From Alterinioella nitratireducens (lineage in GTDB: Bacteria; Pseudomonadota; Alphaproteobacteria; Rhodobacterales; Rhodobacteraceae): 64,000 nt of DNA. The DNA is taken from contig NZ_JABJVX010000004.1 in the NCBI RefSeq assembly GCF_013155465.1, positions 310,001 to 374,000 of the forward strand, written 5' to 3'. Of the stretch, positions 45,125-46,845 are shown piece after piece (within the stretch, counting starts at the first letter, position 1; every line of letters starts with the position of its first letter). The position numbers were made by a program, and so were the translations under genes. The notes below the pieces were generated by a model. The model was not told the origin of the DNA and searched no databases. It worked only from the letters and a program-made list of their open reading frames with translations.

Positions 45125-45302
45125 AGGCCTTGATTTTTCAAAGTTTCCATCTGCCGCAGGGCGGTCGTCCGTGTCGCTGCGCGCAGTTTTTCCGGTTTTC
45201 CGCAGCGGGGCAACCCGGTTTCGATCCGTCTTGACGCCCCTCTGCCCGCCCGCTATGCGCTTGGGGCAGTGGCGATTTGTTTACCGGATTGCGGGCCACT
45301 AT

Positions 45303-45481
45303 ACACTTTGCGTTTACATGGGAAACGAAGGATCAGAATTCGCGTTCGCAATCAGCGGCAGCTGATGAAGAGGCAGAGAATTCTGATACGTCTCTAACGC
45401 AAAGTGTTGAAAACAAGCCGCTAAAGAGGTCGCGCATGGGGGCAGGGCCCCTCAAGCCCCGACCGTTCACCGGTGCGGGGC
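45303..45481 (+). promoter_or_regulatory. Structured 5' leader of metZ, possible SAM-II-like riboswitch
   Basis: Outer stem 45303-45314 (acactttgcgtt) pairs perfectly with 45396-45407; a nested 10-bp stem pairs 45332-45341 (atcagaattc) with 45378-45387; the inner hairpin is atcagc 45351-45356/gctgat 45361-45366. An alternative hairpin cgttt (45311-45315)/aaacg (45323-45327) competes with the outer stem. GCTAAAGAGG at 45420-45429 matches the conserved 3' end of SAM-II riboswitches (GCTAAAAAGG), preceded by TGAAAAC. A hairpin at about 45455-45482 precedes the metZ ribosome-binding site. The whole gap 45125-45516 has no gene. The ligand identity is inference. Confidence 0.45.
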
Positions 45482-45516
45482 TGTTTCATGCCTCGCACCA
45501 TCAGGAGACGAGAGAC

Positions 45517-46719: not shown

Positions 46720-46778
46720 CGGCAAGAATTTTGCCCGAAAAATCTTGCCGTCCGAAAAATCTTGCCCAAGATTTTTCG
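46720..46778. repeat. Double palindrome after metZ
   Basis: Stem 1 pairs cggcaaga (46720-46727) with tcttgccg (46743-46750), with more pairing inside. Stem 2 pairs cgaaaaatctt (46753-46763) perfectly with aagatttttcg (46768-46778). The two share the word cgaaaaatcttg. Located directly after the metZ stop; resembles palindrome 1 at 38978-38999. Confidence 0.75.
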
Positions 46779-46845
46779 ATCCGCTGGCCAAACCGTGGCC
46801 CTTGCCCCTAAAGAGGATCACCCGATTGCCGCGACGGACCCGCCC

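Follow-up and report, generated by a model that had tools for sequence, protein, structure and literature searches.

A SAM-II aptamer upstream of metZ with a dispersed palindromic repeat inserted in loop L3

Why does a long, perfectly paired hairpin stand directly upstream of metZ in Alterinioella nitratireducens, and which RNA, if any, senses SAM there? Within the window, the 64,000-nucleotide stretch of DNA that we analysed, a preliminary description had placed a highly structured leader RNA at 45303-45429, with three nested perfect stems, a competing hairpin as in switching RNAs, and a SAM-II-like 3' motif lacking the usual SAM-II loop, and it had raised a divergent or different riboswitch class as a possibility. 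The stems are indeed present and perfect throughout (12, 10 and 6 bp), and the leader RNA reaches a folding energy of -42.7 kcal/mol, where 200 shuffled versions average -24.3 and none falls as low (z = -5.96). The competing hairpin (CGTTT/AAACG) is possible on paper, yet at about -0.2 kcal/mol on its own it carries no weight beside an outer stem whose pairs have probabilities of 0.84-1.0, and a switch of this kind was rejected on energy. We find that the large hairpin is neither an aptamer nor a switching structure, but a dispersed repeat inserted in loop L3 of a SAM-II aptamer whose two halves lie on either side of it.

At permissive thresholds the SAM-II model (SAM_alpha, RF00521) matches the leader twice, in the correct order and flanking the hairpin. 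The first piece (45268-45303, model positions 10-45, 22.7 bits) covers P1 and the GAUUUG...UUGCGG loop, and the second (45390-45445, CCGCUAAAGAGG, 19.2 bits) matches AAACAAGYCGCUAAAGAGG. No Rfam family matches the window at the gathering threshold, and the two pieces stand at 22.7 and 19.2 bits against the 36 required of a single match because the insert splits the alignment; the shortfall is a property of the detection threshold and not a structural feature. The standard SAM-II loop said to be absent is there (GAUUUGUUUACCGGAUUGCGG), just upstream of the reported interval, which began 35 bases downstream of the start of the aptamer 5' half, and a divergent or different class is thereby ruled out. 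The 3' motif was correctly recognized, as the second piece holds the conserved SAM-II motif, GCTAAAGAGG (45420-45429), and the SAM riboswitch that it had suggested before metZ in an alphaproteobacterium is, given this motif, very probable. The SAM-V model and that of the SAM-II long loops motif (RF01726) have no match up to E = 10, and there is no second SAM-II candidate of comparable score in the genome.

The two halves make up one SAM-II aptamer, with both P1 and its GAUUUG...UUGCGG loop and a pseudoknot P2 with a CUAAA(G)AGG 3' strand. All six P1 pairs can form, CCGC of the 3' strand pairs with GCGG at 45291-45294 as P2a, and by likeness to the SAM-II structure GGU would pair with ACC at 45283-45285 as P2b. 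P1 and P2a covary among relatives: among 102 distinct aptamers, from relatives and the window, we observe double-sided changes in P1 at pair 1 (CG/AU), pair 3 (UA/CG/AU) and pair 6 (CG/GC), and in P2a (CG/UA and GC/AU). P1 and P2a of the window are intact, being the same as, or compensated against, those of the relatives. A leader fold computed with a program that cannot model the pseudoknot does not favour P1 (probability 0.01), a point against a working switch.

Comparison with relatives delimits the insert. L3 is 117 nt long in the window, as opposed to 9 or 10 nt in 96 compact aptamers of relatives, and thus departs from the short L3 of SAM-II. The nearest sequence on the MetZ tree (L118) is a compact SAM-II aptamer that reads GCCACG-TTAAACAAG-CCGCTAAAGAGG, and the window reads GCCACT-AT-[105-nt hairpin]-TGAAAACAAG-CCGCTAAAGAGG, such that the tail is nearly identical, the 3' strand is identical, and the hairpin has been added directly behind P1. 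The nearest relatives have the same aptamer without the insert, which spans about 105 nt, give or take a few bases at either end, and whose stem forms independently, with pair probabilities near 1. Feature coordinates are collected in the table.

Table. Positions of features in and around the metZ leader, numbered from the first letter of the window.
Feature	Position	Strand	Sequence or support
Putative promoter	45231-45259	+	-35 TTGACG 45231-45236, 17-nt spacer, -10 TATGCG 45254-45259
SAM-II 5' half	45268-45300	+	RF00521 piece; P1 and P2a covariation in relatives
P1 strands	45268-45273 / 45295-45300	+	AGUGGC / GCCACU, 6/6 pairs
L1 and P2 5' strand	45274-45294	+	GAUUUGUUUACCGGAUUGCGG
Inserted dispersed palindromic element, large P3-like hairpin in L3	45303-45407	+	arms common to other genome copies; fold z about -6; compact relatives without insert
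Outer stem, 12 bp	45303-45314 / 45396-45407	+	ACACTTTGCGTT / AACGCAAAGTGT
Conserved element core, containing inner and apical stems	45328-45391	+	CGCGUUCG...GAAGAGGCAG; model R1 82.8 bits, the score of a training member (window copy is one of the 7 seeds); covariation in 70 copies
Nested (inner) stem, 10 bp	45332-45341 / 45378-45387	+	ATCAGAATTC / GAATTCTGAT
Apical stem, 6 bp	45351-45356 / 45361-45366	+	ATCAGC / GCTGAT
A-rich tail, remnant of native L3	45408-45417	+	UGAAAACAAG; compare UUAAACAAG in nearest relative L118; tail statistics
SAM-II 3' pseudoknot strand	45418-45430	+	CCGCUAAAGAGGU; RF00521 second piece, 19.2 bits; P2a covariation
Terminator-like hairpin with weak U-tract	45456-45487	+	GCCCCG.../CGGGGC 45456-45461/45476-45481, UGUUUC; position kept in relatives
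metZ, O-succinylhomoserine sulfhydrylase, 400 aa	45517-46719	+	TIGR01325 above cut-off, 547.9 bits

The inserted element belongs to a dispersed family. A covariance model of its core (R1), built from seven seed copies including that of the window, finds at least 12 copies at unrelated loci of the window's genome. Among 295 Rhodobacteraceae genomes 27 have matches, with up to at least 17 copies each; these counts are lower bounds, as the search scored only about 17 candidates in any one genome. Among 289 genomes sampled across the class, the element turned up in the window's own genome alone. An exact-arm search recovers three further full copies in this genome, with terminal inverted repeats ACTTTGCGTT...AACGCAAAGT, and blastn over 394 family genomes detects the core in two other genomes, where it lies at unrelated loci and is 87-88% identical. 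The copies have CGCGTTCGA...GAGAGGCAG in common, and their terminal arms vary by genus while remaining largely complementary within each genus; thus the copies L205-L241 set genus-specific arms (AGAGCGAAATCGCTTTAAT, AAAGTGTTTCGGCTTTTACC, ATAGCGGTTCGCGTTTTACTTG and others) around one common core with complementarity kept. In 70 aligned copies, 96% of the pair cells are standard, in an alignment fitted to the model and hence favouring structure, with slid controls dropping to 32-56% paired; 11 of the 21 pairs have double-sided changes, which occupy 121 cells against 32.5 in shuffles. Unpaired core residues are near-invariant across genera and the stems change by compensatory substitutions. Judged by sequence, genus-specific arms around a common core make this a family-wide structured repeat.

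The element is a previously uncatalogued dispersed palindromic repeat without an Rfam match, none of the 14 copy loci searched matching any family at E up to 0.5. Most of the other copies in the window's genome are intergenic and not in leaders, and several of those at L194-L204 lie between apparently convergent long ORFs, e.g., L196, L198, L199 and L203, with the ORFs called mechanically only. REP-like repeats often sit between convergent genes. Plasmids and phages searched by blastn contain no copies of the insert at E up to 0.01, no target-site duplication is clear by eye among the copies, and no partner transposase was identified for the element; a RAYT origin was considered and rejected, as the Y1_Tnp domain (PF01797) has no match in the window's genome at E up to 1. 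We found no report of the repeat family or of SAM-II L3 hairpins in the openly readable papers searched, and a prior description may exist.

Can a SAM-II aptamer accommodate a helix at this site? An L3 hairpin is present in 15 other Rhodobacteraceae genera, with mostly unrelated sequences and the P1 and P2 core kept. These cases come from 12 re-examined genomes with weak SAM-II scores and from two strict patterns run over 394 genomes (2 and 9 genomes, respectively); none of the 12 low-scoring genomes reached the Rfam cut-off and eight carry a readable L3-hairpin SAM-II. Across the hairpin-bearing genera L3 measures 19-117 nt, mostly 19-52 nt, the hairpin begins 0-3 nt after P1, and the predicted tails behind it are mostly 4-10 nt long and A-rich (mean A 0.66), with one exception (L138), whose predicted fold leaves a tail of 1 nt. 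Taken singly, a short hairpin in a 20-nt loop is weak evidence, and the case lies in the repeated placement of such hairpins beside a kept core. The MetZ tree has 124 rows, 16 of which carry the hairpin; these count the window and L063 (the latter placed by eye) but not L136, which dropped out. About 11 gains or losses of the hairpin are required on this tree, at least nine of them forced by well-supported branches, and one clade keeps the hairpin with diverged sequences. A strong terminator lies downstream of most L3-hairpin aptamers, including L136 (positions 1500-1650, genome G096), a metZ SAM-II whose L3, unrelated in sequence, is also 117 nt long. These comparisons indicate that related switches have repeatedly gained hairpins at the L3 site without loss of the core.

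We therefore favour, with a probability of roughly 0.7, the reading that metZ is preceded by a functional SAM-II riboswitch in which the dispersed palindromic element, some 105 nt long, sits in L3 and serves as a P3. The aptamer and the insertion are observed directly, as are the identity of the element and its other copies, the compact SAM-II aptamers of relatives and the recurrent L3 hairpins elsewhere; the switch probably still works, because related switches gained hairpins at this site without core loss. The element would fold by itself, forming a long hairpin that adjoins the base of P1, presumably beside it at the site of P3 in SAM-V, and act as a large P3 pointing away from the SAM site, while the 10-nt A-rich tail UGAAAACAAG would bridge the P1 minor groove in the usual role of L3. 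P1 and the pseudoknot P2 could then form despite the insert and bind SAM, and plentiful SAM would repress metZ, probably via the downstream hairpin.

Transcription is expected to start near 45266, judging from the putative promoter at 45231-45259, whose boxes received no score in a strict consensus promoter scan; relatives have TTGAC-like boxes at an equal distance before P1. Downstream, the U-tract of relatives mostly has 6-7 T in 8 nt and that of the window at most 5 (TGTTTC). In four Roseicyclus/Roseibacterium-type relatives (L020, L026, L029 and L034) the SAM-II aptamer is perfect but lacks a U-tract within 90 nt, a hint that the expression platform there may be of another kind. Just behind metZ, at 46725-46792, lie repeated palindromic blocks (AAGAATTTTGCCCGAAAAATCTTGCC...GAAAAATCTTGCCCAAGATTTTTCG) that are possibly another small repeat or a terminator. 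Two Paracoccus metZ upstream regions near the window on the MetZ tree (L078, L086) are without SAM-II, an apparent loss of the riboswitch, and a record titled Nocardioides marinus (L095, JAHVJD010000002.1) has a Rhodobacteraceae-type metZ with SAM-II that groups inside that family, and is probably a mislabelled assembly.

The weak U-tract calls for caution and keeps alive an alternative in which the switch is broken: a recent repeat in L3 slows or blocks pseudoknot folding, metZ is free of SAM control, and the aptamer is intact merely because the insertion is young. Consistent with this, the insertion is limited to this lineage on the MetZ tree (one genome of the genus sampled), and a 117-nt L3 far exceeds most other L3 hairpins. 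However, every core residue is retained, L136, from another genus, has a strong terminator behind an L3 of the same length, and the weak U-tract is not proof of decay, because L020, L026, L029 and L034 have lost theirs with intact aptamers and no insert. The outermost stem pair of the window copy moreover shows a matched G-C to A-U change relative to other copies, a hint of upkeep since insertion. We consider a broken switch unlikely.

More ambitious readings give the repeat a function of its own. In the widest, it is a functional structured RNA found across the Rhodobacteraceae whose conserved core binds a protein or directs processing, its capture in L3 made the metZ SAM-II a two-input device, and the SAM-II riboswitches of this family repeatedly evolve a SAM-V-like P3, here by repeat capture; we regard this as quite unlikely. 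Confined to this locus, the repeat might add an activity, either because its invariant internal loop (CGCGUUCGA / GAGAGGCAG) binds a protein or an RNase or because it stabilizes the mRNA, and so give the SAM-II switch another input or affect stability. Its near-invariant unpaired core and compensatory stem changes exceed what is expected of dead repeats, and a transcribed BOX repeat of pneumococcus lies between two T-boxes ahead of trp that both seem still to work (PMC3049150), but selection on transposition could also maintain the structure, and most other genome copies are intergenic, several between apparently convergent genes, rather than in leaders; an added activity seems quite unlikely too. 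That the nested hairpin is itself a divergent or new SAM aptamer with competing folds, as its strong fold and position before metZ had first suggested, is almost certainly wrong, as the element recurs at unrelated loci of this and other genomes, the flanking halves already account for the aptamer, and the competing fold is negligible.

In the preferred reading, a SAM-II riboswitch with a repeat-derived P3, a dispersed repeat lies within the pseudoknot of a natural aptamer, at a site that can take a helix according to structural work. The case suggests a route by which helices of the P3 type, known from SAM-V, might come about. Standard Rfam scans miss SAM-II riboswitches with L3 hairpins, and the repeat adds a covarying family without an Rfam match, found in 27 of the genera sampled from a single bacterial family.

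How does this leader compare with known systems? It resembles SAM-II (SAM_alpha, RF00521), whose main targets in Rhodobacterales are metY/metZ (PMC4239095), in its P1, GAUUUG loop, P2a/P2b pseudoknot, A-rich L3 tail, CUAAAGAGG 3' strand and place before metZ, and differs in the length of L3, in the repeat-derived hairpin and in falling below the gathering score as one match. In SAM-II the L3 adenines wrap the P1 minor groove and contact P1 (PMC12434664); termination has been proposed as the mode of action for the S. meliloti metZ SAM-II (PMC9373788), and riboswitches in general tolerate variable insertions (PMC2258182). In the SAM-V crystal structure a P3 hairpin, stated to be absent from SAM-II, leaves the P1 3' end, with adenines behind it that make A-minor contacts to P1 (PMC6061858), and the Rhodobacteraceae L3 hairpins, that of the window included, sit at the same position with adenines behind; unlike SAM-V, the window core is SAM-II, with a 4-bp GC P2a and an RF00521 match but no SAM-V match, and the SAM-V P3 has 3 bp as opposed to the 105-nt element. 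The SAM-II long loops motif (RF01726) is, by its name and description, SAM-II-like with extended loops, but derives from Bacteroidetes and marine sequences (PMC2864571) and has no match in the window. The element itself is reminiscent of MITE- and REP-like repeats such as pneumococcal BOX (PMC3049150; reviewed in PMC10969869), being likewise about 90-130 bp, dispersed, mostly intergenic and foldable with terminal inverted arms; unlike RAYT-mobilised REP sequences it has no Y1 (RAYT-type) transposase domain in its genome, and unlike BOX, MITE or REP repeats it has genus-specific, covarying arms around a common core and, in the window, lies inside the aptamer fold itself.
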